From the NCBI RefSeq assembly GCF_001570725.1, contig NZ_BCNV01000001.1:62001-126000 (forward strand): DNA of 64,000 nucleotides. The letters are read 5' to 3'. Below, piece after piece: positions 10,229 through 52,432 of the stretch. The position numbers and the translations under genes were made by a program. Source of the DNA: Paenibacillus amylolyticus. Lineage in GTDB: Bacteria > Bacillota > Bacilli > Paenibacillales > Paenibacillaceae. The notes under the pieces were generated by a model. It was not told the origin of the DNA and ran no database searches. It worked only from the letters and a program-made list of their open reading frames with translations. Positions within the stretch are counted from its first letter, which is position 1, and each line of letters opens with the position of its first letter.

Positions 10229-10322
10229 CTGGCGCACAATCAGAAGCCGAAGAACAGCATGGGCAGACCAACAGCAACAGCGTTTATATTTAATTTCCAC
10301 TATTCCAGGGAGGTATATATTC

Positions 10323-26807: not shown

Positions 26808-26855
26808 TTTACGGATTCGCAAATGAACCATAAACTCGGTATGTAAGCGTTACCA
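26808..26855 (+). promoter_or_regulatory. Promoter with cre-like site for the glycan operon
   Basis: A candidate -35 TTTACG (26808) and -10 TAAACT (26831) have a 17-bp spacer. TGTAAGCGTTACCA (26842-26855) matches the CcpA cre consensus at 13 of 14 positions and lies just downstream of the -10. That position normally gives catabolite repression. Confidence 0.5.
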
Positions 26856-26902
26856 AATGAGTGGGAAGGCCGGATTTTCATTAGAAAAGGAGGAAACAAC
26901 TG

Positions 26903-27874
26903 ATGCAGCCAAATGGGAAGCCCGCCTTGTCGCAAAACTTAGCGGTAAACACGATTCCGAACAGCAAGAAAAATAAATTATGGAGAAGGATGATTCGGAA
27001 CTGGGAGTTGTATCTGTTTATCGCACCAGCCTTTCTATACTTTCTGATATTCCATTATGGTCCGATGTATGGCATACAAATCGCTTTCAAAAACTTTATC
27101 CCTACACTTGGTGTCACGGGAAGCCCATGGGTCGGATTCGATCATTTCATCCGTTTCTTCAATTCCTATTATTTTTGGGATCTACTATGGAATACCCTTA
27201 GCATCAGCTTGTATGAGCTGGCTATAGGATTTCCGCTGCCGATCATTCTTGCGTTAGCTTTCAATGAAGTAAAGGATTCCTTCTTCAAGCGTACCGTGCA
27301 GACCGTCACGTATGCACCACATTTCATTTCGGTCGTCGTGATGTCGGGGATGATCATTACCTTTTTGTCACCCTCGTCAGGCATGATTGTTAATTTGGTG
27401 GAGGCCCTTGGATTTCAGGCACCTCAATTTCTGACGGACCCTGCGTGGTTCAAGACAGTGTATGTGCTGTCAGGAGTCTGGCAAAGTGCAGGCTGGGGAA
27501 CCATTATATACCTTGCCGCTCTATCGGGTGTGGACCCCCAACTCCATGAAGCGGCTGTGGTGGATGGTGCGAGCCGGTTTAAACGGATTTTACATATTAA
27601 CATTCCAGCGATCATCCCTACGATCACCATCTTGTTAATTCTGAATATGGGCAGTATTCTGGGCGTCGGATTCGAGAAAATCCTGCTGCTGCAAAATCCG
27701 CTGAACATGGGCTCGTCAGACGTCATCTCAACATTTGTCTATCGGTCCGGTCTGGTCGATGCGCAGTACAGTTTCTCTACGGCGGTGGGATTGTTCAACT
27801 CCGTAGTTAATGCGATTCTGCTTATTACCGTGAATCAGATTGCACGCCGCACCAGTGAAAACAGCCTGTGGTAA
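26903..27874 (+). CDS. Sugar ABC transporter permease, LplB-type
   Basis: 323 aa with six membrane helices. The inner-membrane permease signature EAAVVDGASRFKR is near residue 215. The family (LplB/YteP) imports complex oligosaccharides. The ribosome binding site GGAGG lies nine bases before the ATG. It is the first gene of a run of seven same-strand genes to 36600, with no terminator seen between them. The ATPase subunit is absent, as usual for this group; a shared MsmX-like ATPase elsewhere is expected. Confidence 0.92.
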   Translation: MQPNGKPALSQNLAVNTIPNSKKNKLWRRMIRNWELYLFIAPAFLYFLIFHYGPMYGIQIAFKNFIPTLGVTGSPWVGFDHFIRFFNSYYFWDLLWNTLSISLYELAIGFPLPIILALAFNEVKDSFFKRTVQTVTYAPHFISVVVMSGMIITFLSPSSGMIVNLVEALGFQAPQFLTDPAWFKTVYVLSGVWQSAGWGTIIYLAALSGVDPQLHEAAVVDGASRFKRILHINIPAIIPTITILLILNMGSILGVGFEKILLLQNPLNMGSSDVISTFVYRSGLVDAQYSFSTAVGLFNSVVNAILLITVNQIARRTSENSLW

Positions 27875-27890
27875 AAGGAGGGGAAAACAC

Positions 27891-28799
27891 ATGTCAACCG
27901 CAGTGAAAGAAAGCAGAAGCGATAAAGTATTCTTATTGTGCAATTACATCTATCTGACGATAGCGCTCGTCATTGTGTTGTATCCGCTGCTATACATCAT
28001 CAGTGCTTCAATCAGTGATCCCAAATACGTAAGCTCCGGTGAAATGTGGCTGCTTCCAAAAGGAATAACGTTTGAAGGCTATGCCCGGGTGTTTGAGAAC
28101 ACCAACATCTGGATCGGGTACAAAAATACAGTCATCTACACCGTCGTAGGTACGATCGTCAACCTGATTGTCACGCTACCAGCAGCCTATGCGCTTAGTC
28201 GCTCGGATTTTGTGGGACGAGGTTTCTTCATGGCAATGTTTATGGTAACGATGTTCTTCAGCGGAGGGCTTGTCCCGAGTTACTTGCTGGTTAAGGATCT
28301 TGGCATGGTCAACAGCATGTGGGCACTTATTCTGCCAGGAGCTGCATCCATCTGGAATATTATCGTATGCCGTACGTTCTTCCAATCGACCATTCCCAAG
28401 GAACTGCAGGAAGCGGCACATATTGATGGGTGTACCAACACCCGGTTGTTCATCAAAATCGTGCTCCCGCTTTCCATGCCAATCATTGCAGTGATGGCGC
28501 TTTTCTACGGAGTGGGACACTGGAACAGCTATTTCAGTGCCATGATCTATCTGAACGATTCCTCCAAGTATCCGTTGCAGCTCTTTCTGCGCCAGATTCT
28601 GGTGCTTCAGGAAATGGCGGCTCAAGGGGGAGGCGCGATTGATACCTCATCAGCAACGGCGATGAATACCAAAGCGGAGATTGCTGCGTTGGTTAAATAT
28701 GCCGTCATTATTGTTGCCACACTACCGGTCATTGCGGTATATCCATTTCTCCAACGTTACTTTGTCCAGGGTGTTATGATCGGTTCCGTTAAGGGATGA
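27891..28799 (+). CDS. Sugar ABC transporter permease, LplC/YtcP-type
   Basis: 302 aa from the ATG at 27891, which follows AAAGGAGGGG; the frame is open further upstream without a ribosome binding site. Six helices, with EAAHIDGCTNTRLF as the ATPase-contact loop near residue 190. It starts 16 bp after the LplB-type permease and pairs with it. Confidence 0.92.
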   Translation: MSTAVKESRSDKVFLLCNYIYLTIALVIVLYPLLYIISASISDPKYVSSGEMWLLPKGITFEGYARVFENTNIWIGYKNTVIYTVVGTIVNLIVTLPAAYALSRSDFVGRGFFMAMFMVTMFFSGGLVPSYLLVKDLGMVNSMWALILPGAASIWNIIVCRTFFQSTIPKELQEAAHIDGCTNTRLFIKIVLPLSMPIIAVMALFYGVGHWNSYFSAMIYLNDSSKYPLQLFLRQILVLQEMAAQGGGAIDTSSATAMNTKAEIAALVKYAVIIVATLPVIAVYPFLQRYFVQGVMIGSVKG

Positions 28800-28840
28800 T
28801 CTTAATCCATATACCACATTAAACAAGGGGAGTTGTTGTC

Positions 28841-30436
28841 ATGAAAAAGCTTCACAAGGCTTCATCCATTACACTCTGTCTCACCTTATTCGCAACATTG
28901 CTTGCAGCTTGTGGTTCAACCAATGAAGACGGAAGCTCAACCTCCAAGGTTGAGGGGGTCAAAAAAGAAGGCTTCCCCATTGTAGACGAAACGCTAACGT
29001 TGAAGGTTATGTCCCAGGATGCGGGTGTAGCCGACTGGAGCACGATGCCTGTGCTGCAAGAAATGGAGAAACTGTCGGGCATCAAGCTGGAATACCAGCT
29101 TTCACCGATCGACAGCTTTGAAACGAAGAAAAATCTGGTTTTCGCGAGCGGGGACTTGCCGGATATGTTCTATGCTGCAGATCTCAAACCAGCGGAGCAA
29201 GTAACTTATGGCAGCCAGGGGATTCTGATCCCATTGGAAAAATACATTGACGAAGGTTATGCACCCAATATCAAAAAGATCCTCGATGAGAACCCGGATG
29301 TCCGTAAATCATTTACAACGCCTGATGGGCATATGTATGCACTACCATTCATTGACACGGCAGCTGTGTGGTACAGAGGCCCGATGTGGTACAACGGGGA
29401 ATTCCTAAAGGCGCTTAATGTAGATGAGCCCAAGACTACGGAAGAATTGTATACGTATCTTAAGCGTGTCAAAGAAGAAGACCCTAATGGCAATGGCCAG
29501 CAAGATGAAATTCCGCTTACTTCTGTAAAACTGGATGATCTTCGCATGTTTTTCTTCGGCTTCTGGGGAATGTACAACGAAGGGATCTATTCCGATAAAG
29601 ACGGAAAAGTTCACTATCCTTATCAAGAAGAAGGCTATAAGGGTTATCTGACATTCATGAACCGCTTGTGGAAGGAAGATTTGCTGGATCATGAGACCTT
29701 CTCACAAACAGGCGATCAGAAGAAAGCAAAAGGTGAAAGTAACAAACTTGCGCTGTTCAACGATTACCATCCGTACTTCACGCTCGGAGGTGAACCTAGC
29801 ACGGAACATCCGCTGATGACGCCCGTGAAGAGCGAGGTTGCAGACTCTCCTGTATATGGCAAGCATCCGGGGATGTCGGCTCGCGGTACCTTTGCTATTA
29901 CGAGCAGCAACCCGTCCCCTGAGGCGACGATGCGCTGGATCGACTATATATACAGTTACGAAGGAGCGACCCTGTTCAATCAAGGTCCTGAAGGCGTGCT
30001 GTGGCAATTCAAAGACAAGGAAAATCATGTCAAAGAGTGGCTCCCTGTTCCTGGCGGCGGTGATCGTGAGGAATACCGGGGTAAAATCACGCCGAACTTT
30101 GGTATCTTGACACCGGGCATTAATGATCCGGAGGTAGCGAAAGGGCTTCGTACCGAATTTGATGAGTGGATTGACCAGCAGAATCAAGAGAAGTTGGTGC
30201 CTATCGGAAAAGCTCCATTTCCTAACGTGTATCTGACGAATGAAGAGCAAAGCGAAGCGACGGCCTTACTGTCTGATCTGGATACGTACGTTAAGCAGAT
30301 GGAAGCGAAGTTCGTGACCGGCCAGGAACCGCTTGAGAACTGGGATAAGTACATTGCACAGCTGAAGAAAATGGGCAGCGACCGTATCATCGAACTGTAT
30401 CAGGGGGCATATGACCGCTGGAATACCGGCCAATAA
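28841..30436 (+). CDS. Lipoprotein sugar-binding protein, LplA-type
   Basis: 531 aa. A lipoprotein signal with lipobox LLAAC (Cys near 24) anchors it outside the membrane. The large extracellular solute-binding domain is of the LplA type, longer than simple family 1 proteins. It should capture an oligosaccharide for the two permeases upstream. The specificity cannot be read from sequence. The downstream GH29 and GH18 genes suggest a fucose- and GlcNAc-containing ligand. Confidence 0.9.
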   Translation: MKKLHKASSITLCLTLFATLLAACGSTNEDGSSTSKVEGVKKEGFPIVDETLTLKVMSQDAGVADWSTMPVLQEMEKLSGIKLEYQLSPIDSFETKKNLVFASGDLPDMFYAADLKPAEQVTYGSQGILIPLEKYIDEGYAPNIKKILDENPDVRKSFTTPDGHMYALPFIDTAAVWYRGPMWYNGEFLKALNVDEPKTTEELYTYLKRVKEEDPNGNGQQDEIPLTSVKLDDLRMFFFGFWGMYNEGIYSDKDGKVHYPYQEEGYKGYLTFMNRLWKEDLLDHETFSQTGDQKKAKGESNKLALFNDYHPYFTLGGEPSTEHPLMTPVKSEVADSPVYGKHPGMSARGTFAITSSNPSPEATMRWIDYIYSYEGATLFNQGPEGVLWQFKDKENHVKEWLPVPGGGDREEYRGKITPNFGILTPGINDPEVAKGLRTEFDEWIDQQNQEKLVPIGKAPFPNVYLTNEEQSEATALLSDLDTYVKQMEAKFVTGQEPLENWDKYIAQLKKMGSDRIIELYQGAYDRWNTGQ

Positions 30437-30531
30437 AAAAGTCTATCAATATATATCCCATGAAGAAGGACAATGATTAGGTTCAATGATTTTTCTCATA
30501 TATGAATTCTCAGGGGAGGGTGTGGGCAGAT

Positions 30532-31818
30532 ATGCAGAAATGGTTTGAAGAAGCTAAACTGGGGATATTCATTCACTATGGCATCTATGCTGTAGACGGG
30601 GTTGCGGAATCCTGGTCTTTCTATAATGGAAGGGTCTCCTATGATGAATATATGAAGCAGTTGGATGGGTTTACGGCATCGGCATTCAATGCGGAGAAGT
30701 GGGCGGATTTGATTGAAAAGTCTGGAGCCCGCTATGCCGTGCTGACAACGAAGCATCATGATGGTGTTGCTCTATGGGATACGCAGTATAGTGACCTCAA
30801 TGTCGTCAAACAGACACCCGCGAATCGGGATATCGTGAGGGAATATGCAGAAGCGATTCGGGAGAAGGGCATTCATCTGGGGATGTACTTTTCGCTGATC
30901 GATTGGTCACACCCGGATTATCCCAGCGTATATGAAGCTGGAAAAGTACCGGAGGACCTCAGCAGTGTCAACCGGCATTCAAGTCCTGTGGACGGCGTTC
31001 AGGATCAGGAGAAATGGCAAAAGTTCCTGCAATTCAATAACCATCAACTGGAAGAGATTTTGACCAATTACGGAAAAGTGGATCTGCTGTGGTTCGATGG
31101 GGACTGGGAACGAAGTGCCCAGCAGTGGAATCTGCCGGACTTCAAGCATTACCTGCAATCCTTCAACCCGGATATCATCATCAACTCCCGTCTGCAGGGT
31201 TATGGAGATTACAAGACGCCTGAGCAGGGCATTCCGATTACAAGACCAGAGGGACCCTGGGAATTCTGTACCACGATCAACACATCTTGGGGTTATGTGC
31301 CAACAGATCATAAATATAAATCACTTAATCAGATCATTCGAATGTTCTGTGATTGTATTTCGATGGGCGGAAATATGTTACTGGATATCGGCCCGCGTGA
31401 AGACGGGACCATCGATCAGAGGCAGGAGGACATCCTGCTTGGGCTGGGAGCATGGATTCGGATCCATGAGGAGGCTGTTTTCGGGACGGGAGAAGGGATT
31501 ATGCCTCGCTATTATTTGGGGGGAAGCACCGTATCAGAGGACAGAAAGTCATTGTACCTATTTGTGTATGACAAGCCAAAAGAGAATGTGTGCATCAAAG
31601 GTCTCTGCAATCCGATCAAGAAAATTACCGTGCTGCATTCGGGCAAAGAGCTTCATCATGAGATTCATGGGGGCGTGCCTTGGTTCAATATCCCAGGTAC
31701 AACGTGGATCAAGATGACCCCGGAGGATACGCATGAACAGGTGACCGTTCTTAAGCTCGAATTCGATGAGGAGCTGGAAATGTACGGCGGCGCTGGAGCC
31801 GTTGTCACCCATAACTAA
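30532..31818 (+). CDS. Alpha-L-fucosidase, GH29, cytoplasmic
   Basis: 428 aa from the ATG at 30532 behind GGGGAGGG; an ATG ten codons earlier has no ribosome binding site. There is no signal peptide. GH29 landmarks are KLGIFIHYGIYAVDGVAESW, then VLTTKHHDGVALWD and LLWFDGDW with the likely nucleophile Asp189. The C-terminal beta domain spans about 340-428. It should hydrolyse alpha-L-fucosides after import. It follows the transporter genes by 95 bp without a terminator. Confidence 0.92.
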   Translation: MQKWFEEAKLGIFIHYGIYAVDGVAESWSFYNGRVSYDEYMKQLDGFTASAFNAEKWADLIEKSGARYAVLTTKHHDGVALWDTQYSDLNVVKQTPANRDIVREYAEAIREKGIHLGMYFSLIDWSHPDYPSVYEAGKVPEDLSSVNRHSSPVDGVQDQEKWQKFLQFNNHQLEEILTNYGKVDLLWFDGDWERSAQQWNLPDFKHYLQSFNPDIIINSRLQGYGDYKTPEQGIPITRPEGPWEFCTTINTSWGYVPTDHKYKSLNQIIRMFCDCISMGGNMLLDIGPREDGTIDQRQEDILLGLGAWIRIHEEAVFGTGEGIMPRYYLGGSTVSEDRKSLYLFVYDKPKENVCIKGLCNPIKKITVLHSGKELHHEIHGGVPWFNIPGTTWIKMTPEDTHEQVTVLKLEFDEELEMYGGAGAVVTHN

Positions 31819-31881
31819 CCATTACGGGGAGGGTGTGTGCTGATAGATGCATGCCCTCCCTTACGAATTGGAGAGAGCGAC

Positions 31882-32904
31882 ATGAACAGAAGTGGAGTGC
31901 CGGAACCCAGGATTGAGTATGCTCCCAAACATTATATATGCAATCGTGCGCAGGAACCGCTGGTCTTAGACGGCCGTGTGGATAAGGCATTTTGGGATGC
32001 GGCCCCTTGGACGGATGATTTCGTTGATATCGAAGGGGATCTTCGTCCGAAGCCAGGGAAACAGACACGGGTCAAAATGCTGTGGGATGACGACTATTTC
32101 TACTTTGCTGCCGAGCTGATTGAAGATCAGATATGGGCTACGTTGACCGAGCGTGATTCCGTTATTTTCTATGACAATGACTTTGAGATTTTTATCGATC
32201 CCGATGGGGATTCCCATCAATATTATGAGTTCGAGATCAATGCACTCAATACGGTATGGGACCTGCTATTGGTGAAGCCGTATCGGGATGGCGGACCTCC
32301 GGTCAATGGGTGGGATATCAGCGGTCTTAAGACAGCTGTACATATCGATGGGGAGCTGAACACACCTGGAGCCGATAACCGAAAATGGAGCATCGAGGTC
32401 GCAATTCCCTGGACCAGTCTACAGGAGTGCGCCGAAGGAAAACGTCCGCCTGCGCCGGGTGAGTTCTGGCGCGTCAACTTCTCACGCGTGGAGTGGCAGA
32501 CCGAGGTGCAGGGCGACGAGTACCGCAAGGTGCTGAATCCAGATACGGGCAAACCTTATCCGGAAGACAACTGGGTGTGGTCACCTATGGGCATTATCAA
32601 CATGCATTACCCGGAGTTGTGGGGCTATGTCGTATTCTCGGATGACGGAACCAATCAGTCATTTGAGATGCCGGAAGACGAGCGAATTAAATGGGAGCTT
32701 CGCAGGCTCTATTACCGAGAACGCAATTATTATGAAACCCATGGTGAATTTACACAGAATTTGAAGCTGCTTATGGGTGAGGAGTCATTGATTTGCCAGC
32801 CTGTAATTGAAACAACCCGTAGCCTATTCCAGATTAGTACGCCTTCCTCGGACGGCGCTACCTTAATCTGTATTCGGGAAGACGGAAAGCTGTGGAAGGA
32901 GTGA
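31882..32904 (+). CDS. CBM9-like carbohydrate-binding protein, cytoplasmic
   Basis: 340 aa from the ATG at 31882, behind GGAGAGAG. Residues about 20-235 form a CBM9-type beta-sandwich: LDGRVDKAFWDAAPWTDDF, then KMLWDDDYFYFAAEL, FYDNDFEIFIDPD and YYEFEINALNTVWDL. The C-terminus (about 260-340) has a charged helical part. No signal peptide or catalytic domain is visible. CBM9-like proteins usually act outside the cell or in fusions, so a free cytosolic one is unusual. It probably binds, or possibly acts on, the imported glycan. Confidence 0.75.
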   Translation: MNRSGVPEPRIEYAPKHYICNRAQEPLVLDGRVDKAFWDAAPWTDDFVDIEGDLRPKPGKQTRVKMLWDDDYFYFAAELIEDQIWATLTERDSVIFYDNDFEIFIDPDGDSHQYYEFEINALNTVWDLLLVKPYRDGGPPVNGWDISGLKTAVHIDGELNTPGADNRKWSIEVAIPWTSLQECAEGKRPPAPGEFWRVNFSRVEWQTEVQGDEYRKVLNPDTGKPYPEDNWVWSPMGIINMHYPELWGYVVFSDDGTNQSFEMPEDERIKWELRRLYYRERNYYETHGEFTQNLKLLMGEESLICQPVIETTRSLFQISTPSSDGATLICIREDGKLWKE

Positions 32905-32911
32905 GAGGACA

Positions 32912-35542
32912 ATGACCAGCCAAACCTTGGTATTTTCCCTTGATGCACAGTCATTGGAGAGGATCGAGCAGAAGTTCCAGGAGAAGGTGCGTTTTGCAGA
33001 GGCCCGCAAATCGGAGTTGTTTGATATTTTTCAACAGAACCTAACCGAAGAAGAGACCTGGGCATTGAAGTATGTGTATGCCTACATGCCGGTAAACGAC
33101 ATGGCTGATTATAACGGGGACCTGTTCTTGAGTCATGTGCGCCGGGCTTTGGACACCCGCAAACGTGTGCCTTGGGGAGATCGCGTTCCCGATCATCTGT
33201 TCCTTCATTTTGTGTTACCCTATCGGATAAATACAGAAAATATTGAAGATTTTCGCGGCTTGATGTATGACGAATTAGCCGAGCGGACAGAGAAGTTATC
33301 CATGACCGATGCCATTTTGGAAACCAATTACTGGTGTCATGAAAAAGCGACCTATATCGGCAGCGATCTGCGCACGATATCGCCGCTGACGATGATCCGT
33401 AATGCTCGCGGACGATGCGGCGAAGAATCCACGCTGGCAGTGGCCGCTCTTCGCAGCATCGGCATACCTGCCCGTCAGGTCTATACGCCGCGCTGGGCTC
33501 ACGGTGACAGCAATCATGCTTGGGTGGAAGCCTGGGCAGATGGTCAATGGTATTACATCGGGGCATGCGAGCCGGAAGCCCGTCTGAATCAAGGGTGGTT
33601 CAGCCCACCAGCCCGCAGGGCCATGCTGATTAATACGAGGATCTATGCCGACTATCCCGGACCAGAGGATATTACGCTCTCCGAGAAGGGATTTACTGAA
33701 ATCAATTTGCTTGAGAATTATGCGCCGACGCGGGTCATTGGTGTGAAGGTGAAAAATGAGCAGGGAGAGCCTGTACCCGGAGCGAGTGTCCGCTTTGAGT
33801 TGTACAATTCGGCTGAATTCTATCCGATTGCCGAAATTAGCACGGACGCACAAGGGGAAGCTGCTTTTAAGACAGGTTATGGTGACCTTTTGATTCGTGC
33901 GGTCAGTGGCGGCAAGTGGAGTGAAATCCTATTCAAGGCTCAGGAAAGCGAGCTTGTAGAGCTTGTATTGGACTCGTCAGAGCAGCTCACAGGGATCACA
34001 GATTTTGATATGGTTCCTCCTCCGGAAGGGGAGGGGGAGGTTGTAATTGCATTACCGGAAGAGAAGATCCGGATTCACAATCGTCGTCTGGAGGAAGGGG
34101 CGAAGACCCGGAGCGAGTATGAGAAGACATTCCTGAGTGAGGAGGAAGCGGTCTCGCTGGCTAAAGTGGTTGGACTGCCCTCAGTACGTGTATGGGCTAT
34201 TCTCGAGAAAGCAAGGGGGAATAGTCGTGAAATTGCAGCATTCCTAGAGGAACGGTCCAATTCATACGGTGAATGGCCGCTCCGGTTGCTGGAGTCGATG
34301 AATGAAAAAGATTTAATTGATACCTTTCGCCAGACGCTGGATGATCATCTAGTCGGTGCACTCTCACAGCAAGGATCATGGTCTGAAGATACTTTCGTGA
34401 GATACATCCTATGTCCGCGGATTTCCTATGAGATGCTGGTTCCTTATCGAGGCGTATTCCAGAATGCCTTTTCGGCTGACAAAGCAGCAGCGTTTAGGGA
34501 AAATCCTGCGATGCTTCTCCAAATGCTGGAACAGGAATACGAATACTATGAAGATCTTCCTAATCTAAAAGGCAAGGGGAATCCGATCGGGACGTTTAGT
34601 CTGATGAAGGGGGACGCTCAGTCGCTGGATATTTTGTTTGTGGCCGTATGCCGCAGTTTGGGTATTCCGGCACGATTACATCCGAGTGCACAGAAACCAC
34701 AGTACCTAAGTGACAGAGGCTGGGAGGATGCGTTTAGTCTCACATCAACTCAAACTCAGGAGAGCACAAGCTGGGGAATGCTCCAACTTCGTAAGGATAT
34801 AAAGGCTCCGCAGGATACACCTGAAGCATCTTATTTCGAAAATTTCTCGTTTGCCCGTCTGGAAGGTGGCATCTACAAGACGTTGATTTATCCTTATGGC
34901 AGTACGGATGTCTATAGCGAGCCATATGAGGTTGAACCAGGCGCTTATCGCTTAACGACAGGCATTCGCCTGAAAGATGGAACGGTAAAAGTGCGCTTCG
35001 TTTACTTTACCGTGAACACCGGAGATACAACGGAGGTTGTATTGACTTATCGCGAGACTGAGGTTGATATTCCTGTACTGGGTAAACTTGCACCAGGAAG
35101 TATACTGACCCGTCTGAATGGTTCAGAAGTAGAGCTGGAGGAACTTCTGGGATCGGAGGGTGCCATTGCTGCCTGGATTGAACCGGAGCGTGAACCTACC
35201 AAACATCTGCTTCGTGAACTTTGCGAGCTGGCAGGGCCACTGGATAAGCTGGGTATACCCATCGTACTCATCATCGGAGATGTGGAATGGAACGCTGCCT
35301 TTGACCCTGCTGGTTATCCAAAGCTGCCTGTACGCACGGTTTTTGTACGAGATTCCAGTTATGCTTCCTTGTCGGATTTCATTTCAAAGCCTGCGGCCCA
35401 CGAAGCGGGTTATCCGCATCTGTTCGTGCTGGATACACAGCATCAAATTCGGTATTCGGCATCCGGGTACAAGATTGGTACCGGGAAGGAAGCCCTGCAG
35501 ATTGCTGCTGCGATATCTCAATCATCGAACGGATTGGAGTGA
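32912..35542 (+). CDS. Large transglutaminase-like protein with degenerate second copy
   Basis: 876 aa, no signal peptide, eight bases after the CBM9-like stop. The N-terminal transglutaminase-like domain has Cys169 in GRCGEES and His202 in SNHAWVE. The acidic position reads ACEPE, so Glu may replace Asp. A carboxypeptidase-regulatory-like beta domain (about 268-345) follows. A second, degenerate domain has GDAQSLDILFVAVCRSLGIP, where Ala569 replaces the nucleophile. A beta segment (about 630-720) and a thioredoxin-like end without CXXC (about 725-876) complete it. The superfamily includes proteases and peptide:N-glycanases. Between GH29 and GH18 genes, amidase action on glycopeptides is a reasonable guess. 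Confidence 0.75.
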   Translation: MTSQTLVFSLDAQSLERIEQKFQEKVRFAEARKSELFDIFQQNLTEEETWALKYVYAYMPVNDMADYNGDLFLSHVRRALDTRKRVPWGDRVPDHLFLHFVLPYRINTENIEDFRGLMYDELAERTEKLSMTDAILETNYWCHEKATYIGSDLRTISPLTMIRNARGRCGEESTLAVAALRSIGIPARQVYTPRWAHGDSNHAWVEAWADGQWYYIGACEPEARLNQGWFSPPARRAMLINTRIYADYPGPEDITLSEKGFTEINLLENYAPTRVIGVKVKNEQGEPVPGASVRFELYNSAEFYPIAEISTDAQGEAAFKTGYGDLLIRAVSGGKWSEILFKAQESELVELVLDSSEQLTGITDFDMVPPPEGEGEVVIALPEEKIRIHNRRLEEGAKTRSEYEKTFLSEEEAVSLAKVVGLPSVRVWAILEKARGNSREIAAFLEERSNSYGEWPLRLLESMNEKDLIDTFRQTLDDHLVGALSQQGSWSEDTFVRYILCPRISYEMLVPYRGVFQNAFSADKAAAFRENPAMLLQMLEQEYEYYEDLPNLKGKGNPIGTFSLMKGDAQSLDILFVAVCRSLGIPARLHPSAQKPQYLSDRGWEDAFSLTSTQTQESTSWGMLQLRKDIKAPQDTPEASYFENFSFARLEGGIYKTLIYPYGSTDVYSEPYEVEPGAYRLTTGIRLKDGTVKVRFVYFTVNTGDTTEVVLTYRETEVDIPVLGKLAPGSILTRLNGSEVELEELLGSEGAIAAWIEPEREPTKHLLRELCELAGPLDKLGIPIVLIIGDVEWNAAFDPAGYPKLPVRTVFVRDSSYASLSDFISKPAAHEAGYPHLFVLDTQHQIRYSASGYKIGTGKEALQIAAAISQSSNGLE

Positions 35543-35547
35543 AGAGA

Positions 35548-36600
35548 ATGACGAAATATATTGCTGTAGGTTATGCCGTGGATTCAGTTCTTCCCAACAT
35601 GACACATGAGGATCTGTTGAAGTTAACACATCTGAACGTAGCCTTCGGACATGTTAAGAATGATGAAATCACCACTGAGCATTTAAAGAACGGTCATGTT
35701 ATCCAAAACATGAAGCGGGAGCATCCAAATCTTACGATACTGCTGTCTGTTGGCGGATGGAGCGCTGGAGGTTTCTCAGAGGCCGCCTCAACCCAGCCGG
35801 GGAGGGACAGCATGGCTGCATCAGCGGTAAGGGTGCTGGAGGAATACCCTTTTGACGGGATCGATCTGGACTGGGAGTATCCTTGTTATGGTGAAGCTGG
35901 TATCACATCCAGTCCTGATGATAAACGGAATTTTACCTTGTTACTCAAGACGATGCGGGAGTCACTGGATGCCAAGGGAGTCGAGGATGGTCGTCATTAT
36001 CTGCTCACCATTGCGGCAGGGGCTGACCAATACTACGTGGACGGTACAGAGATGGCTAAAGTGCAGCAGTACCTCGATTACGTCCAGTTGATGACCTATG
36101 ATATGCGCGGCGGTTTTCAGATTCTGACCGGACATCACACGAATCTGTACACGCCAACAGGAGATTTGTTTCGAATCAGTACGGATGCTTCTGTGAACCT
36201 GTTTGTTCGCGCTGGCGTTCCGAAGGAGAAAATTGTGATCGGTGCTGCGTTCTATTCCCGAATCTGGACTGAAGTTCCGGATCGAAACCACGGGCTTCAT
36301 CAAATGGCTAGCAGCACAGGCGGCTATGGTCCGTCGTATGCAGAGCTGGAAGCGAAGTACATTAACAAGAATGGGTACACTCGTTATTGGGATGAAGAAG
36401 CCTGTGCACCGTTTCTGTTTAATGGGTCCAGCCTAATATCTTATGATGATGAAGAGTCGATCCAATGCAAATGTGATTACGTAAAGGATCAAGGTCTGGC
36501 CGGAATCATGTTCTGGGAGTACGGCTGTGATCCGACCCACCGTCTACTGAGTGCGGTGCATCAAGGGCTGCAGGATCTTCCGGCTGGGAAAATAGGATAA
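35548..36600 (+). CDS. GH18 family glycosidase, cytoplasmic
   Basis: 350 aa from the ATG at 35548, five bases after the previous stop and behind GGAGTGA. The catalytic motif FDGIDLDWEYP has Glu110 as proton donor. SVGGWSAGGFSEAA and YVQLMTYDM are further GH18 landmarks, and FWEYGCDPTHRL closes the barrel. No signal peptide or chitin-binding module is present. It should cleave beta-1,4-linked GlcNAc units (chitinase or endo-beta-N-acetylglucosaminidase type) inside the cell. It is the last gene of the operon. Confidence 0.92.
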   Translation: MTKYIAVGYAVDSVLPNMTHEDLLKLTHLNVAFGHVKNDEITTEHLKNGHVIQNMKREHPNLTILLSVGGWSAGGFSEAASTQPGRDSMAASAVRVLEEYPFDGIDLDWEYPCYGEAGITSSPDDKRNFTLLLKTMRESLDAKGVEDGRHYLLTIAAGADQYYVDGTEMAKVQQYLDYVQLMTYDMRGGFQILTGHHTNLYTPTGDLFRISTDASVNLFVRAGVPKEKIVIGAAFYSRIWTEVPDRNHGLHQMASSTGGYGPSYAELEAKYINKNGYTRYWDEEACAPFLFNGSSLISYDDEESIQCKCDYVKDQGLAGIMFWEYGCDPTHRLLSAVHQGLQDLPAGKIG

Positions 36601-36652
36601 ACACCTCAGGGAGCCGACGGGTCAGATGATGTATATGGACTAAAAACATACG

Positions 36653-36703
36653 AAGGGGCCGTCCTATAGTCATGCTCATGACTTATAGGACGGCCCCTTG
36701 TTT
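36653..36703. terminator. Long terminator between convergent transcripts
   Basis: A stem of about 22 bp, AAGGGGCCGTCCTATAGTC with its mirror ending GGACGGCCCCTT, separates the GH18 gene from the convergent sensor-regulator gene. Confidence 0.85.
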
Positions 36704-36800
36704 GCGTTATTTTGGTCTATTGAATCTGGCACATGTCATTCGCTCTCATATACACTGTTTACTGTTCTGAGATGTAACCATCACAGAGACGATGCTCCAT

Positions 36801-39101
36801 TTAGCCAATACATTCCTCGTCATCATCATCCGGGGAATCGGCGGAGCCGTTGGGACGGTGCATTTTACGGTACTGTCCGGGTGTGTAACCCGTCTCTTTC
36901 TTGAATTTGCGGATGAAGTTTGGTGTATCCAGGTAACCGACACGCGTGATGATATCTTTTAACGGATCGGTTGTATGCAGCAGTAATCGGATGACTTCAT
37001 CCATCCTTTTCTGCCAAATGTATTGGGTAAAATTCATACCGATCTTTTCTTTGAATGAACGGCTGAAATACGATGAAGAGATCGTAAATTTCGATGAGAT
37101 CGTACCCAGACTGAGGTCATAATCAGAGAAATTGGCATCGATATAAGCAACAATTTCATCCATCAGGGAGCTTTCTTCTGTTTCGCTCTTCGCCTCGACA
37201 TGGGCGCAGATTTCGGCGGCAAGACCTGTCAGTTTTTTCTCCAAATCCTCCAGTGAGTCATAGGATGTGATTCTTGGGAGCTGATTAACCACATGATGCA
37301 TCCCAAGCTCTGAGGCGGTTTTTAGCATAGTATTCAGAATATCAAAGCAGATGCAACGCAGCAGTGGTACCGACGGCATTTCGGCTTTCAGGTTGTTTAA
37401 TGCGGTCGACACCATCTGAACCGCCACATCATAGCTACCCTGTTTTAAGCTCTGGACCAGCTTCAGCAGTACATCTTTAGGGACCCAGAAGGAAGAATCC
37501 TGTTCACTAGAGCCGGAAAGGGCGTTGAAAAAGGTGTTGCTGCCTTGTCCGTGCAGCATGGACGCTTCCAGCGCGGTTGATGCCTCGATGTAGGATTGGT
37601 TCAGCTGTAATGGAGAACTGTAGCTGTTGCCAATCCCAATCGCGGGAGCGACTCCGACGTGATCTGCAACCATCGATTGTAGTGATTCAACAATAGACTC
37701 CATACGAGCATTCAAGCTGGATTCATGTCCGATTTCGGTATTAAATCCGACGATGAGGGCCAATTGGTCTGCTTGAGGAAGCTCCACACCGTATGCATTA
37801 GCAGAGATCTCCGGCAGTTCCACATCGTTCATCAGTTGCATGACAGTTCGTTGTTCAGGGTTATCACCCATAGGAAAAGCATGCATTTCCCAGCCCATGA
37901 TCATGACAAAGTAATGGGATCGGTTAAAGTGTATGCCGAACTTGTCCGTAAACTCAGAGGGGAAATCTCCGGTATGGCCGTGCTTCAGCAGCATAAGCAA
38001 AATATGATTGCGAGCGTAGGGCTCCTGAAGATCCACGCGCTGACTATAATCGTGTAGTGTTTTCTTGATCCATTCCAGCTCATTGGTGGTTGAGGATGGA
38101 TCAGGATCATTTTTCAACCGAATGAACTCCATTAAGTCTGAAATCGGATGGTATTGTCTTCGGGCCAACATAATAGCGAGGAATGTACCCATCACCACCA
38201 TGAAGGAGAAAACAAGAACAACAAAGGTGCGAATATGAACAATTCGGCTGAAAAATTGGTTGCTGGGCATAGCGGTTACATAAGTCCAGCCAGCATCTGA
38301 TTTGACGGATACAACTGAATGCGGTTCTTGATTCAAGGAGAGGCTGTGCGTTCCCGGCTCAAGTGCAAACAGAGATTTGACTTCCTGTTCGGTAATGGTC
38401 TCCCCCTTATAATTGGCGGCCAGCACCTGTCCATAATTATCGAAAATATAAGTCATCCCATGGTAGTCGCTGAGAATGGAATCAATCAATCCGGTCAGAT
38501 TAGACTCGTGAATCAGGTACATGACGGTTCCATGGGCGGGCGTATTGTTAGGCGCAATCGGTACAAGGTAGGCCAGCATGGAGTTGGGTATTTTGGTTCC
38601 TTGAACGACCTGCTCCGCCGGTCGTATCGTGGGAGACTGCACGTTATTCAAATCCTGGATCATGTCCGCTTCATTCCATGTATTAAATTTGTAGCGGCCA
38701 GTAAATACATTCAGATTTTCAGAGCCTTGAGAAGAGTAGATGTTATCATCTCCTCGGAAGAATAGGAACAGCTCATCAATAATGGAACTGGTGGCTTTAT
38801 ATTTGACCAATGCGCCAATCGATTCTCGGCTATAGTACGGATGGTGGGTCCAATACCGCGTTAACTGCTCATCGTAGGCGATGCGAAACGCGATGTCTTG
38901 CAGTTCCTTCATGCGATCATCAATGACAGTTTTGGCTTGAGTGAGCTGGTTGACATTGGTCTGTTCAATCTCTGAACGGAGCGTGTCCACAGCGTTGTGA
39001 TAAATAATGATGGTTAAAATAACAAGAGGGATAAGGAAAATGGAGATATAGGATAGTGTGTACTTAAGCAGAAGCTTGGACTTGAAGTGATTCCATTTCA
39101 T
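36801..39101 (-). CDS. Membrane-bound AraC-family sensor regulator
   Basis: 766 aa. TM1 (about 12-34), an extracellular Cache-like sensor (about 35-280) and TM2 (about 288-310) precede a long cytosolic part. The C-terminal double HTH (about 655-755) has SSYFSRSFKEKIGMNFTQYI and DTPNFIRKFKKETGYTPGQY. Such proteins commonly sit next to Lpl-type sugar transporters in Paenibacillus and activate them when the external sugar is sensed. It is convergent with the glycan operon, its most likely target, and downstream of a GH43 gene. The ribosome binding site is GGGAGG. Confidence 0.88.
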   Translation of the reverse strand: MKWNHFKSKLLLKYTLSYISIFLIPLVILTIIIYHNAVDTLRSEIEQTNVNQLTQAKTVIDDRMKELQDIAFRIAYDEQLTRYWTHHPYYSRESIGALVKYKATSSIIDELFLFFRGDDNIYSSQGSENLNVFTGRYKFNTWNEADMIQDLNNVQSPTIRPAEQVVQGTKIPNSMLAYLVPIAPNNTPAHGTVMYLIHESNLTGLIDSILSDYHGMTYIFDNYGQVLAANYKGETITEQEVKSLFALEPGTHSLSLNQEPHSVVSVKSDAGWTYVTAMPSNQFFSRIVHIRTFVVLVFSFMVVMGTFLAIMLARRQYHPISDLMEFIRLKNDPDPSSTTNELEWIKKTLHDYSQRVDLQEPYARNHILLMLLKHGHTGDFPSEFTDKFGIHFNRSHYFVMIMGWEMHAFPMGDNPEQRTVMQLMNDVELPEISANAYGVELPQADQLALIVGFNTEIGHESSLNARMESIVESLQSMVADHVGVAPAIGIGNSYSSPLQLNQSYIEASTALEASMLHGQGSNTFFNALSGSSEQDSSFWVPKDVLLKLVQSLKQGSYDVAVQMVSTALNNLKAEMPSVPLLRCICFDILNTMLKTASELGMHHVVNQLPRITSYDSLEDLEKKLTGLAAEICAHVEAKSETEESSLMDEIVAYIDANFSDYDLSLGTISSKFTISSSYFSRSFKEKIGMNFTQYIWQKRMDEVIRLLLHTTDPLKDIITRVGYLDTPNFIRKFKKETGYTPGQYRKMHRPNGSADSPDDDDEECIG

Positions 39102-39408: not shown

Positions 39409-40935
39409 TTAAAATGATAATTCTTCCAGAGGTTCATAGTCGAACCAATCGAAACCTGCAGGGGTGCGTTCCCCCGATGGATCGTAGGCATACATGGCTA
39501 CAATAACACCTGTGAAACCACTTGCTACTTCGGTAGATAACAGATGGGTTTCACCTGAACCTACTTCAATGGCATTGGATGAGCCTTGCTGGTAGAGGAA
39601 CGTAAAGTGATTACGGTCGGCCTTGATCTGTAAAACAACCGGACCCTTCTCACAGTCAAGCATCTGTACCGTTCGTAGAGAACCGACAGTTCGCCGTAGT
39701 ATGATTTTCTTCTGGCCGTCGATCCGTGTTACAGCCAAGTCATAATGATATTTATTATTCATAAATACGGTCAAACCTGCTTCACCGCCGCTTGTACTTG
39801 GCTCATAATGCATTTCGGTCGCCATGTTACATAAGAAATGGCTCAATCGACGCCCGACAAAGGATGGATTTCTCCCATCATCGAGCGAAACCGGATGACC
39901 CCGCAGGATGAGTTGCCCGGGATTTTCTGTAAGCGTCCAACTATCCAGAGCCGGGTTCCGAAGGAAGATCCAGTTCATGTTCAATGTTGGTTCGTCAAAA
40001 TGATCCCGGATAGCCTGATGCGACCAGGGGTGCTCAGGCAACGAAGGTCCAGTCATCTCCGGCTCAATATGTCCGTCCACACCGATCATCGGCCAACCGT
40101 CATCTGTCCACGTGACAGGTGCCAGGAACGTTTCGCGTCCCAGATGGTGTCGCATGGGGTAACCTGCTGGACGAAGGCCCAGACATACGGCCCACCAGCT
40201 TCCATCCTGAATCTGGACAAGGTCTGCATGCCCGGTTGCATGGATACTGGATTTCATGCTGCGATTGGACAGAATCGGATTATGAGGACACGGATCAAAT
40301 GGTCCGTATGGATTTGCACTTCGAGCAATGGTCTCCATATGACCATACTCGGTTCCACCTTCGGCGATCATGAGATAGTAGAGGTCGTTTATTTTGTACA
40401 AGTGGGGAGCTTCGGGGGCTGCGCCTCCGGTTCCTCTCCATATCAATCGACTATTGGTCAGTCTGGCTCCGGTCGTGATGTTTATTTCGCACTGATAGAT
40501 GCCTTCGCCTTCATTGCCATTACAAGCCGTTTGAAAGTATACACGTCCATCATCATCAAAGAGGAAAGAGGGATCTATGCCGTCCTGATCAACAAAAATC
40601 GGAGCAGACCATGGTCCCTCGGGCTGGGCACTACGTACATAAAAATTTCCGCCGCCGCTAACATTGGTTGTTGTCATATAGAACCAGCCATCATGATACC
40701 GGAGTGTTGGAGCATAAATGCCGCCAGAGCTGCCCGCGTTCGCTAGAGGGAGTTGTTCTGTGGTAGTAAGGACATGGCCGATCTGTCGCCAGTTCACAAG
40801 GTCTTTACTATGAAAAATAGGCACACCCGGGAAATATTCAAAGGTACTGGTCACCAGATAGTAGTCTTCGTCTACACGACAGATGCTTGGATCGGGATAA
40901 AAACCCGGAATGACCGGATTGGTATATTTCATCAT
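39409..40935 (-). CDS. Intracellular GH43 beta-xylosidase/arabinofuranosidase
   Basis: 508 aa without signal peptide. The five-blade propeller has the general base Asp in NPVIPGFYPDPSICR, the middle Asp in DQDGIDPSFLFDDDG and the acid Glu in AAPEAPHLYK. A C-terminal concanavalin-like sandwich (about 315-505) is typical of XynB-type GH43 enzymes that cleave xylo-oligosaccharides from the non-reducing end. An arabinofuranosidase activity cannot be excluded. The start is the first of two adjacent ATGs after AGGAG. It is divergent from an AraC/cupin regulator, probably its controller. Confidence 0.9.
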   Translation of the reverse strand: MMKYTNPVIPGFYPDPSICRVDEDYYLVTSTFEYFPGVPIFHSKDLVNWRQIGHVLTTTEQLPLANAGSSGGIYAPTLRYHDGWFYMTTTNVSGGGNFYVRSAQPEGPWSAPIFVDQDGIDPSFLFDDDGRVYFQTACNGNEGEGIYQCEINITTGARLTNSRLIWRGTGGAAPEAPHLYKINDLYYLMIAEGGTEYGHMETIARSANPYGPFDPCPHNPILSNRSMKSSIHATGHADLVQIQDGSWWAVCLGLRPAGYPMRHHLGRETFLAPVTWTDDGWPMIGVDGHIEPEMTGPSLPEHPWSHQAIRDHFDEPTLNMNWIFLRNPALDSWTLTENPGQLILRGHPVSLDDGRNPSFVGRRLSHFLCNMATEMHYEPSTSGGEAGLTVFMNNKYHYDLAVTRIDGQKKIILRRTVGSLRTVQMLDCEKGPVVLQIKADRNHFTFLYQQGSSNAIEVGSGETHLLSTEVASGFTGVIVAMYAYDPSGERTPAGFDWFDYEPLEELSF

Positions 40936-41104
40936 GTTATGCTCCTATTCATTGTGAGAGTTTAGTACGAATCTGGACATATTAGAGAATCCTTGCTACA
41001 AGGCGAATTATAACGGTTTTAAGGATATTGAACCTTGATTTTTCGGTCCTGGAATAGCATGATATAGACATTCAGCCCAACAATGTTTGTGGAGGGGAAT
41101 GCTT

Positions 41105-41971
41105 TTGAGTAATGCCTACTTGAGATGGTTTACTTCAGATCATCAACAATTTCCGTTTTTCATTCAGTATGGTGGACACGTTGAGGACATGGAGCTTCAT
41201 AATCATATGGATTTTACGGAACTTGTGATTGTTCTGAATGGTCATGCAACTCATGTGGTGAACACCGAGGAATTTTTTATTAAAAAAGGAAACGCGTTTG
41301 TCATCAATGGTGACACCCATCATGCGTATAAAGACCCTCATGATTTTAGGATCTGTAACGTGATGTTCAGTCCAGAGATGCTTTCTTCGGCTGGGCCTGA
41401 TCTCAGGAAATCCAACGGCTTTCAGGCACTGTTTGTTTTGGAACCGTTTTATCGCAATACCCACTCATTTCCGAGTAAACTGGCGTTATCCATTTCCAGT
41501 CTGGAGTATGTCGAATCGTTGATATCGTTCATGATTGAGGAGTATCACAGTAAACAGCAAGGCTATCAGACGATGTTGATCTCACGTCTAACGGAGATGG
41601 TTGTATATTTGTCGAGGCAATATGATACGCAGGAAAAGGGCATTGAGGGCAACAATCTGATGCATCTGGCAAATGCCATTTCATATATTGAAGATCATTA
41701 TCTGGAGCCATTGTCGCTGGAGGACATTGCGGGGAAGTCGAACATCTCGATAAGGCATCTGAATCGGATTTTTCGATCCTATTATCAGATGACTCCGATC
41801 TCTTACCTGCAGAAGTTGCGTCTGGAAAAGGCATGTCATTTGTTGAAAAACGGGAACCTGTCCATTACAGAAATTTCGTATGAATGCGGGTTCAACGACA
41901 GTAACTATTTCACCCGTCAATTCAAGAAAGCCTATGGCAAGTCTCCCAAAACATACAGGCAAACTCATTAA
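41105..41971 (+). CDS. AraC-family regulator with cupin sensor
   Basis: 288 aa from a probable TTG start at 41105, seven bases after GGAGGGG. The ATG at 41099 lies too close to that site. The N-terminal cupin-type domain (about 15-110) has MELHNHMDFTELVIVLNG with metal/ligand-type His residues. The C-terminal double HTH (about 185-288) contains GKSNISIRHLNRIFRSYY and CGFNDSNYFTRQFKKAYG. It is divergent from the intracellular GH43 gene and probably activates it on binding a xylose- or arabinose-type sugar. Confidence 0.9.
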   Translation: MSNAYLRWFTSDHQQFPFFIQYGGHVEDMELHNHMDFTELVIVLNGHATHVVNTEEFFIKKGNAFVINGDTHHAYKDPHDFRICNVMFSPEMLSSAGPDLRKSNGFQALFVLEPFYRNTHSFPSKLALSISSLEYVESLISFMIEEYHSKQQGYQTMLISRLTEMVVYLSRQYDTQEKGIEGNNLMHLANAISYIEDHYLEPLSLEDIAGKSNISIRHLNRIFRSYYQMTPISYLQKLRLEKACHLLKNGNLSITEISYECGFNDSNYFTRQFKKAYGKSPKTYRQTH

Positions 41972-46670: not shown

Positions 46671-46698
46671 TTGACTAAAGTGATCTGGATTTGATAAA
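46671..46698 (+). promoter_or_regulatory. Promoter of the arabino-oligosaccharide transporter operon
   Basis: -35 TTGACT (46671-46676) and a weak -10 GATAAA (46693-46698), spacer 16. Confidence 0.5.
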
Positions 46699-46765
46699 TT
46701 TAACAACAGAAATCCTATTTCATCCAATTGAATACGGTTACAAATCCAGATCAGGAGGGGTTCAG

Positions 46766-48109
46766 ATGGTAAAGAAAAAGAATTGGGTCACATTTATGCT
46801 TCTTATGCTGGTAAGTGCGCTGGTACTTGCGGGCTGCGGAGGAGGCAGCGGTGCAAGTGGGGACAAGGAGTTAACATTTATGTTCCGCGGCGGTACAGAC
46901 GAGCAGAAAGCATACCAGGCGGTGGTCAAGAAATTCGAAGAAGATCATCCGGGTGTGAAAGTCAAAATTATTGTAACGGCTGCGGATCAATATGCAACCA
47001 AGCTGAGAGCGGCAATTACAGGCAACAGCTTGCCTGACGTATTCTACATCAATCCGGGCGATGTGAAAGCGTATGTGAACAGCAATGTGCTGATGAACCT
47101 CACATCGTATATTGAAAATAATCCGGATGTTGATCTTGATAATATCTGGAAATACGGCGTGGATCTGTATCGTTATGACGGACAAATGGCAGGCCAAGGT
47201 GATATCTACGGTATGCCGAAAGATTTGGGGCCATTTGCACTGGGCTACAACAAGACTTTGTTTGAAAAAGAGGGCATTCCATTCCCTGACACGGATAAAC
47301 CATATACATGGGAAGAGTTCATCAAGGTGAACCAGCAAGCGACCAAGGATACCAATGGAGACGGTAAACCGGATGTATACGGTACTGGATTCAACGTACA
47401 GTGGGCACTGCAATCCTTTGTATGGAGCAACGGTGGCGACTGGTTGGATGAAACCAAAACAAAGGTAACGATTGACGACCCGAAATTCGCTGAAGCACTG
47501 CAGTTCTTCGCGGATATGCAAAACGTATACAAAATCACACCTTCTATTGAGGAAGCGCAAACATTGGATACGTACCAACGCTGGATGAAAGGTGAAATGG
47601 CTTTCTTCCCTGTAGGTCCATGGGATATGAGTACATTTGAAAAACTGCCTTTCGATTATGATTTGTTGCCTTTCCCTGCGGGATCGACTGGCAAATCGGC
47701 AACGTGGATCGGCTCTCTGGGCATTGGGGTATCGGCGAAAACGAAATATCCGGAAGAAGCCGCAGCATTGGTGAACTACCTTACGGCTTCGAAGGAAGGC
47801 ATGCAGCAACTGGTAGATGCCAAGGTACAAATCCCGAACTTGCTTGATATGGCAGACGAGTGGGCCAAAGATACATCCACGAAACTAGCCAACAAGCAAG
47901 AATTCATTGACATCGTAGAGGATTACGGCCGGGCTCTGCCAGGTAACTACACGTACAATGCGGAATGGTATGACCTGTTCTTCACGGACATTCAGCCGGT
48001 ATTGGATGGCAAGATTACAGCCGCAGATTATGTGAAGCAGCAGCAGCCGAAAATGCAGAAGCTGCTCGACAAAGCGGTTGAACAGGAAAAGAAATCTCAG
48101 AATAAGTAG
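46766..48109 (+). CDS. Lipoprotein sugar-binding protein, AraN-like
   Basis: 447 aa from the ATG at 46766 after AGGAGGGG; the longer frame from 46691 has no ribosome binding site. Lipobox LVLAGC at about 21-26, then a Gly/Ser linker and a family 1 solute-binding domain with [13 protein letters not shown] at its start. The order with two permeases and GH43 genes corresponds to AraN-P-Q importers of arabino-oligosaccharides. The binding specificity is inferred from context. Confidence 0.88.
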
Positions 48110-48120
48110 ATAGGAAAAGG

Positions 48121-48246
48121 CGATGCCGGCGGTCAGCAATCATGCTGCTGGCATCGTTCTTATTGGAGCTTATTGGAGCTTATTGGATTCCATACGGGCA
48201 TGTGGCATTCGTTGATCGACAAGGCTCAATCGACGGATGCCACATG
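48121..48246 (+). promoter_or_regulatory. Intercistronic hairpins and short tandem repeat
   Basis: Between the binding-protein and permease genes, CGATGCC pairs with GGCATCG (48121-48156). A 10-bp unit TATTGGAGCT then repeats 2.7 times (48161-48187). A second stem, CATGTGGCATTCG with CGGATGCCACATG, spans 48199-48246. Such stems often terminate part of the transcripts or protect the upstream mRNA, giving excess binding protein over permease. Confidence 0.55.
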
Positions 48247-48273
48247 CTGATACTAGAAACAGGGGTGAACACC

Positions 48274-49164: not shown

Positions 49165-49190
49165 TTGTCAAGGAAAGGAGTGAACCAGAG

Positions 49191-51511: not shown

Positions 51512-51518
51512 GGGGACG

Positions 51519-51710
51519 CCCAGCGAGCGCGAAAAGCGAGCTTCTGCTCCGAAGGTGCACAAGCAGTGAGGGGGAGGAAGGAGCCGAAGGAGCGAGTTTG
51601 GCATTCGATTTCAACCGCCAGAAGCGGGTGGAAAAAGAAATCGGAGGACAAGAGAGCCCCAAGGCCCTACCACCCCCGAACGTCCGCTGTGCACCACAAA
51701 GCTGGCCTGT
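51519..51710 (+). repeat. Structured repeat, R copy 1
   Basis: About 190 bp, starting eight bases after the GH43 stop codon. It shares its whole length with 51876-52070 and 52173-52350. Landmarks are CCCAGCGAGCGCG at the start, GTGAGGGGGAGGAAGGAGCC, a CGATTTC...GAAATCG hairpin and CCCCCGAACGTCCGCTG near the end. It is richer in G and C than the flanking genes. Any coding potential looks accidental (see 51876). Confidence 0.85.
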
Positions 51711-51799
51711 TAAGGTGTGCTAACGCCAAGGTATTACAGCCTTTAGACATTTAAGATGCATCTGTGCTGGCCTATGTCTGAGGCCAATTTGCACTAAAT

Positions 51800-52070: not shown

Positions 52071-52096
52071 TAGCTCGGCGGCCAGCACAGCATTAC

Positions 52097-52350: not shown

Positions 52351-52432
52351 TCAAATAGCTCTTCTCTTTTCTGCATCGCACACACATTCCCAACTCCGAG
52401 CCGCCACACACATTTGAAAGGGGAGCATTCCC

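Follow-up and report, generated by a model that had tools for sequence, protein, structure and literature searches.

The stretch of DNA analysed here, referred to below as the window, comprises 64,000 nucleotides (nt) of Paenibacillus amylolyticus (contig NZ_BCNV01000001.1, positions 62,001 to 126,000) and belongs to a genome of 6.76 Mb in 15 contigs (G000). Between positions 26903 and 36600 its forward strand carries seven genes, which encode two permeases of an ATP-binding cassette (ABC) importer, a solute-binding protein (SBP), a fucosidase of glycoside hydrolase (GH) family 29, a protein resembling carbohydrate-binding module family 9 (CBM9), a protein with two transglutaminase (TG) domains and a GH18 enzyme (Table 1). 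The gaps along the operon are 16, 41, 65, 63 and 7 nt, followed by a 4-nt overlap between the TG and GH18 genes, and a Pfam scan returned BPD_transp_1 twice, SBP_bac_1, Alpha_L_fucos, CBM9_1, Transglut_core in two stretches and Glyco_hydro_18. Coordinates, gaps and domains all agree with the original prediction, made from the sequence alone, of seven same-strand genes with short gaps; these seven genes form one real operon. The start of the second permease gene is read as ATG at 27891, preceded by AGGAGG, and the list of open reading frames (ORFs) has a longer version beginning with TTG at 27840.

Table 1. Features of the operon and its flanks, in window coordinates
Feature	Coordinates	Strand	Evidence
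cre-like site, 47 nt 5' of permease 1	26841..26855	+	exact WTGNAANCGNWNNCW match
ABC permease 1	26903..27874	+	PF00528, 59.6 bits
ABC permease 2	27891..28799	+	PF00528, 43.9 bits
Lipoprotein-type SBP, 531 aa	28841..30436	+	PF01547
GH29 alpha-L-fucosidase	30502..31818	+	PF01120, 316 bits
CBM9-like protein	31882..32904	+	PF06452, 46 bits, partial domain
Double-TG protein, 876 aa	32912..35542	+	Transglut_core twice
GH18, single domain	35539..36600	+	PF00704, 244 bits
Hairpin, likely terminator, between GH18 and convergent AraC gene	36650..36707	.	folding energy
Membrane AraC-type sensor-regulator	36801..39101	-	HTH_18, weak dCache

Judged by hydropathy and by reading of the N-termini, the SBP begins with a signal-peptide-like segment followed by a lipobox-like LAAC, and the GH29, CBM9-like, TG and GH18 proteins have no signal-peptide-like hydrophobic stretch; as had been predicted, these four are likely to be cytosolic. 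There is no ATPase gene among the seven, and an ATPase shared from elsewhere in the genome is usual for importers of the Bacillota. The score of the GH29 protein lies far above the family cut-off of 25.2 bits, and in alignment with its best solved relative, 6gn6, it keeps the motifs LWFD and PWE, to which we presume catalytic roles belong. The GH18 protein shares 245 of 341 residues (72%) with the solved 6inx, labelled an N-acetylglucosaminidase and presumably from Paenibacillus barengoltzii, which it resembles also in consisting of a single GH18 domain; its DGIDLDWE, an intact form of the GH18 motif DxxDxDxE, aligns with DGVDLDWE of 6inx. Neither likeness tells which linkage is cut. For the SBP, the nearest solved chains are 5g5y, which we take to be a fructooligosaccharide-binding protein, and AlgQ2/AlgQ1, and the search for structural relatives gave no match to NgtS. 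An identification of 5g5y-5g62 as the pneumococcal N-glycan SBP was rejected, NgtS being 5SWA/5SWB (PMC5215778); the SBP yields no clue to the substrate because its best solved relatives are not the N-glycan SBP.

The original prediction had offered co-occurrence of the four cytosolic genes in other genomes as its test, and the survey bears it out. Among 148 genomes of the Paenibacillaceae, the TG protein occurs in 68 (12 of 19 genera) and the CBM9-like and GH18 proteins in 72 each; all three are present in 61 genomes and none in 68 (Fisher p 8e-30 for TG with CBM9, phylogeny ignored). When 398 genomes from across the phylum were scanned, TG turned up in five, of which two lie outside the family. 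The 69 loci compared, from 68 genomes, are the window and L035-L102 (68 loci from 67 genomes, G033 having given two). CBM9 stands immediately 5' of TG in 61 of them and GH18 immediately 3' in 48, GH29 lies within 9 kb in 41, an SBP gene is found in 50 and a homologue of the AraC-type sensor in 46, and all five accompany TG in 36. A protein of P. xylanexedens shares 98% identity with the TG protein of the window; within the genus g1, five of the 16 genomes sampled, one of them labelled as the same species, lack TG, CBM9 and GH18 altogether. Four loci (L041, L042, L101 and L102) have CBM9-TG-GH18 with a different importer, DUF5696, Yip1/NHL proteins and a GntR/LacI-type regulator, and no homologue of the AraC-type sensor was found in them.

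In part of these loci, the genes near TG suggest a substrate. The run neighbours examined in the Paenibacillaceae number 167 ORFs, 164 taken from the gene runs and three added by hand (the M60 gene of L044; GH35 and the isomerase of L050). The 83 that were hand-chosen and scanned first (80 in the TG run and the three added) include GH125 five times, GH38 four times, GH130, GH3, asparaginase II and M17 twice each, and M3 peptidases seven times. The remaining 84, scanned afterwards, gave no N-glycan family among the 25 of 100 families listed for them, which are acetyltransferases, dehydrogenases, MarR and LacI-type regulators, DUF5696, Clp and others. The window operon itself has no alpha-mannosidase gene, and in a few other genomes GH38 and GH125 share a gene run with CBM9-TG or CBM9-TG-GH18: GH29, GH125, a GH42-like protein of 1049 aa, GH38, CBM9, TG and GH18 in L083; GH3, GH38, GH29, GH125, CBM9 and TG in L092; and GH29, GH29, CBM9, TG, GH18, GH130, GH38, GH3 and GH125 in L096. 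L050 has GH35, an AP_endonuc_2-type isomerase, GH29, GH125, TG and GH29. Finding GH125 within 10 kb in five of the 68 loci has a chance of 1e-4 to 9e-4, on the assumption of two to three copies per 6.3 Mb and with phylogeny ignored. Peptide-directed families are also present: L057 reads asparaginase II, M17 aminopeptidase, CBM9, TG; L062 and its relatives have M3 peptidases 3' of GH18; and an M60 enhancin-like peptidase gene precedes the TG homologue of L044 (L044:5544-7874), whose source genome, G008, has its CBM9-GH18 pair elsewhere. The asparaginase next to CBM9-TG in L056 and L057 is of family PF06089, unlike the glycosylasparaginase family.

Enzymes of GH38, GH92 and GH125 take off the mannose of N-glycans, and those of GH2, GH5_18 and GH130 split Man-beta1,4-N-acetylglucosamine (GlcNAc) (PMC10154615). 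Taken together, mannosidases, a fucosidase, a GlcNAc-cleaving GH18, peptidases and an asparaginase fit an N-glycopeptide better than chitin or the plant cell wall, which narrows the fucosylated GlcNAc glycan of the original prediction, perhaps with peptide, to an N-glycan core or glycopeptide. The operon might instead degrade fucosylated chitooligosaccharides, chitin-like or Nod-factor-like: the nearest solved relatives of the GH18 protein are chitinases and an N-acetylglucosaminidase, and a fucosylated reducing-end GlcNAc also occurs in Nod factors. We consider this unlikely, as it leaves unexplained both the TG protein and the GH38, GH125, GH130, GH92, GH2, asparaginase and peptidase genes that stand beside TG.

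Other loci of the same genome agree with an N-glycan substrate. On contig C11 (G000:C11:206000-229500; L196, L197) the gene for a GH85 protein of 942 aa with a signal-peptide-like N-terminus diverges from a group that opens with a regulator/kinase-like pair and an importer (SBP and two permease-like genes) and continues with GH3, GH38, GH125, a 1059-aa protein and a second GH38; the pair and the permease-like genes were judged from the starts of their sequences alone. It is probably a full N-glycan locus, with a 1059-aa protein that appears GH42-like. With this GH85 the genome encodes an endo-acting release enzyme of the kind (GH85, GH18 or PNGase, as a rule extracellular) that bacterial N-glycan utilisation systems have; its export is predicted from the N-terminus. 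Close homologues of this cassette (84% for GH125, 64% for the 1059-aa protein and 63% for GH38) are joined in L083, a locus of another species, to CBM9-TG-GH18 and to a GH29 gene that is 89% identical to that of the window over the part inside the locus. Cleavage by GH85 leaves (Fuc)GlcNAc-asparagine (Asn) on the protein (PMC10154615), so that the most plausible task of the window operon is to process this stub or GlcNAc2-Asn that has escaped cutting. The genome also encodes an L-fucose isomerase domain. A second type of GH29, 65-68% identical to a GH29 of this genome's C9 cluster, occurs in the three other TG operons checked, and a pair of fucosidases would match core fucose in alpha1,3 and in alpha1,6 linkage.

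We propose, with a probability of roughly 55%, that the operon takes up core-fucosylated N-glycan stubs, which probably still carry Asn or a short peptide, and breaks them down in the cytosol. Gene order, family assignments, co-conservation, the GH85/GH38/GH125 locus in this genome and the joined homologues of its cassette in another species are observed; what the substrate is, how the steps are ordered and all enzyme activities are what we infer. Release of the glycans from protein would start outside the cell through GH85, with its signal-peptide-like N-terminus. The lipoprotein SBP and the two permeases would import the stub with an ATPase presumably encoded elsewhere. Defucosylation of the core would fall to GH29, and cleavage between its two GlcNAc residues to GH18. 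The double-TG protein, bound to the CBM9-like protein or acting beside it, would cut the stub from Asn or peptide through Cys169 and His202, and mannose would be removed by GH38 and GH125 enzymes encoded elsewhere in the genome. The original interpretation stands in part: a single operon, enzymes that are probably cytosolic and a fucosylated GlcNAc glycan that may bear peptide are supported, whereas the role of the TG protein and the sharing of one substrate by all steps are inferred.

Several findings weigh against this reading. The linkage is not absolute, CBM9 occurring without TG in seven genomes and GH18 without TG in ten, and CBM9 and GH18 are paired with no adjoining TG in G001, G145, G008, G040, G020 and G087. 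Many of the run neighbours in the Paenibacillaceae are unrelated, housekeeping genes among them. In the Bacteroidota loci described below, most TG runs are without such N-glycan-type genes and the fucosidase is about as common beyond the run as in it (3/114 and 4/114).

The part assigned to the TG protein is a hypothesis. The protein consists of TG domain 1 (residues 1 to about 273), an immunoglobulin (Ig)-like domain (274-355), a second TG domain and a redoxin-like domain (721-872). The cytosolic peptide:N-glycanase (PNGase) Png1/NGLY1 belongs to the TG superfamily and has a Cys-His-Asp triad (PMC2791212); adjacent to its TG core lie CxxC pairs that bind zinc (PMC9102325). TG domain 1 shares with it the TG fold, the positions of the catalytic Cys and His, and the motifs GRCGE and H-x-W-x-E...CE, common to the yeast and mouse enzymes (ACE in mouse); GRCGE around the Cys, and CE past the third triad position, are found in PNGases and not in the putative cysteine protease 3isr. 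Neither Cys169 nor His202 varies among the 44 aligned sequences, which suggests catalysis. The predicted models (pLDDT 86.8 for the whole protein and 84.4 for TG domain 1) indicate a transglutaminase-like fold, with TG-superfamily matches that include PNGase 2f4o and 3esw; TG domain 1 was modelled alone because whole-protein fold searches were mostly filled by the redoxin domain.

Set against these resemblances, Gly217 replaces the PNGase catalytic Asp in all 44 sequences, the active-site stretch of the second TG domain has no Cys, and the Cys of the CxxC motif are absent from the redoxin-like domain. In the family profile search no PNGase was matched and 3isr was the sole TG-domain match; 3isr was also the best Foldseek match of TG domain 1 alone, in lists from which TG subfamilies may be missing and still be relatives. 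Residues 1-273 have Cys142, Cys169 and Cys219 as their only Cys and so lack the zinc-binding pairs, and Png1/NGLY1 differs further in having none of the additional Ig-like, second TG and redoxin-like domains. Where the 120 relatives listed bear a name, it is transglutaminase, putative cysteine protease or hypothetical protein. The PNGase F domain PF09113 had no match in the window genome and none in the control genomes either. The protein is not filed as a PNGase because the triad is incomplete, and a PNGase-like amidase is put forward conditionally because of the Gly in 44 of 44 sequences and the profile search without a PNGase. It is a serious possibility, a little short of an even chance, that the operon does serve N-glycopeptides and that the TG protein trims or binds the peptide, protease-like or as a non-catalytic receptor, while another enzyme splits GlcNAc-Asn. 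The lost Asp, the absent Cys of the later domains and the 3isr matches all favour this, and the asparaginase II and M17 aminopeptidase of L056/L057 could perform the Asn step; GRCGE and CE, shared with PNGases and absent from 3isr, and the invariant Cys169 and His202 speak against it. In the redoxin-like domain (window 35072-35527), Glu761, Pro762 and His765 are invariant in the 44 sequences and mark a conserved site.

Bacteroidota records, those of gut species included, supply most of the TG relatives with 35-42% identity among the 80 best-scoring loci, which are not a random sample. From the run counts 28 of these, from Bacillota records, were left out; from the 53 loci L135-L187 we dropped L137 (Bacillota) and L177 (a short contig on which TG stands alone), keeping 51, among which L153 and L186 are labelled 'bacterium' only. 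The Bacteroidota-type relatives have an export-type N-terminus in 14 of 14 checked, with a Cys directly after it in ten, and are predicted to be exported. N-glycan-type neighbours include GH2 with mannosidase-type domains, GH92, GH20 and a major facilitator superfamily (MFS) gene before TG in L140; GH29, ROK, GH92, GH2, a 440-aa protein and TG in L180; GH92-TG in L135; GH29-CutC-TG in L165, L168 and L187; and GH38-TG in L186. The 114 ORFs of the TG runs include CutC ten times, fucosidase four times, GH92 three times, and GH38 and GH2 twice each. A control of 114 ORFs drawn at random from the 467 others of the same loci has fucosidase three times and CutC, GH92 and GH38 at most once each, a bound set by their order, outside the 25 of 161 families given; CutC, unlike fucosidase, is thus not equally common beyond the TG run (at most one against ten). 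As a further and doubtful extension, the double-TG protein would be the first member of a bacterial family of PNGase-like amidases whose active site is Cys-His-Gly (GRCGE / HAWVE / GACE); the family would act in the cytosol in Paenibacillaceae and be exported in Bacteroidota, and together with CBM9, GH18 and GH29 the protein would make up a pathway for stripping core-fucosylated chitobiose from imported glycopeptides.

CutC is the commonest TG-run neighbour in the Bacteroidota loci. It is annotated as a copper homeostasis protein and may have a glycan-related role; in the window genome (C9, L201:2110-2874) it adjoins GH29 within a GH38/GH3/GH29/GH35-like cluster.

As to known systems, we found no publication naming this gene set in a title or the start of an abstract, most subscription journals lying outside the coverage, and by titles and abstract starts none on a link of TG or CutC with N-glycans. 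The earlier statement that no pathway with this exact set had been described is qualified by two published systems, the first of them a close functional relative. The alf-2 pathway of Lacticaseibacillus casei uses fucosyl-alpha-1,6-GlcNAc-Asn (PMC6960285) and, like the window operon, encodes GH29 with an importer; it takes up a core-fucosylated GlcNAc-Asn stub and degrades it in the cytosol, as is predicted for the window operon, and glycopeptide use with a peptidase is suggested there too. It differs in having the permease AlfH, the glycosylasparaginase AsnA2, AsdA, SugK and PepV where the window has an SBP-dependent ABC importer and no glycosylasparaginase among its seven genes, and GH18, CBM9 and a TG protein are not named in the parts of that source available to us. 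In Streptococcus pneumoniae, N-glycan use involves EndoD (GH85), the ABC importer NgtS-P1-P2 and GH92/GH125 (PMC5215778), which the GH85, GH38, GH125 and importer genes of the C11 locus resemble. That system imports the Man-GlcNAc half; the other half, Fuc-GlcNAc(-GlcNAc)-Asn/peptide, is what the window operon appears to deal with.

As far as these sources go, it is the mannose-bearing half of N-glycans whose breakdown is known in most detail, and the Fuc-GlcNAc-Asn stub on peptides has been followed in few bacteria. If the proposal is true, the conserved CBM9-TG-GH18(-GH29) set would supply a gene set for the stub step in Paenibacillaceae, the TG family would become a candidate for deglycosylase activity in two phyla, with gut Bacteroidota among its carriers, and a deglycosylase tolerating core fucose would be a useful tool.

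The cre-like site and the convergent AraC sensor of the original prediction were both recovered. The site is an exact match to WTGNAANCGNWNNCW, which we take to be the cre consensus associated with CcpA. Sites of this type number three in the window against 1.26 expected, and 18 of 100 shuffles reach three; a match lies within 300 bases 5' of permease 1 in all nine of the closest loci and in 11 of the 21 examined. The motif alone is weak, and it is this conservation that supports it as a candidate. A promoter scan gave 19 matches against 18.9 expected. The AraC-type sensor is likely to regulate the operon. The hairpin 3' of GH18, whose main stem spans 36653-36699, folds with -39 kcal/mol (z -7.6), and none of 200 shuffles is as stable.

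The hairpin also bears on the use of fucosylated plant cell-wall polysaccharides such as xyloglucan, a very improbable function for the operon that is suggested by GH9, GH48 and several GH43 genes in the window. Given the hairpin, these genes lie outside the operon; GH18 would be left without a role, and a homologue of the neighbouring GH43 occurs, among the 69 loci, only in the window and L074-L080.

Window positions 7229-13598 hold two cellulase genes in tandem, for GH9 (999 aa) and GH48 (1091 aa); both proteins contain CBM3 and fn3 domains. At 39409-41971 a GH43 gene with GH43_C2 stands beside an AraC regulator gene, and an importer with two more GH43 genes follows at 46691-53413; the latter two segments are likely to be an arabinan/xylan region unrelated to the operon.
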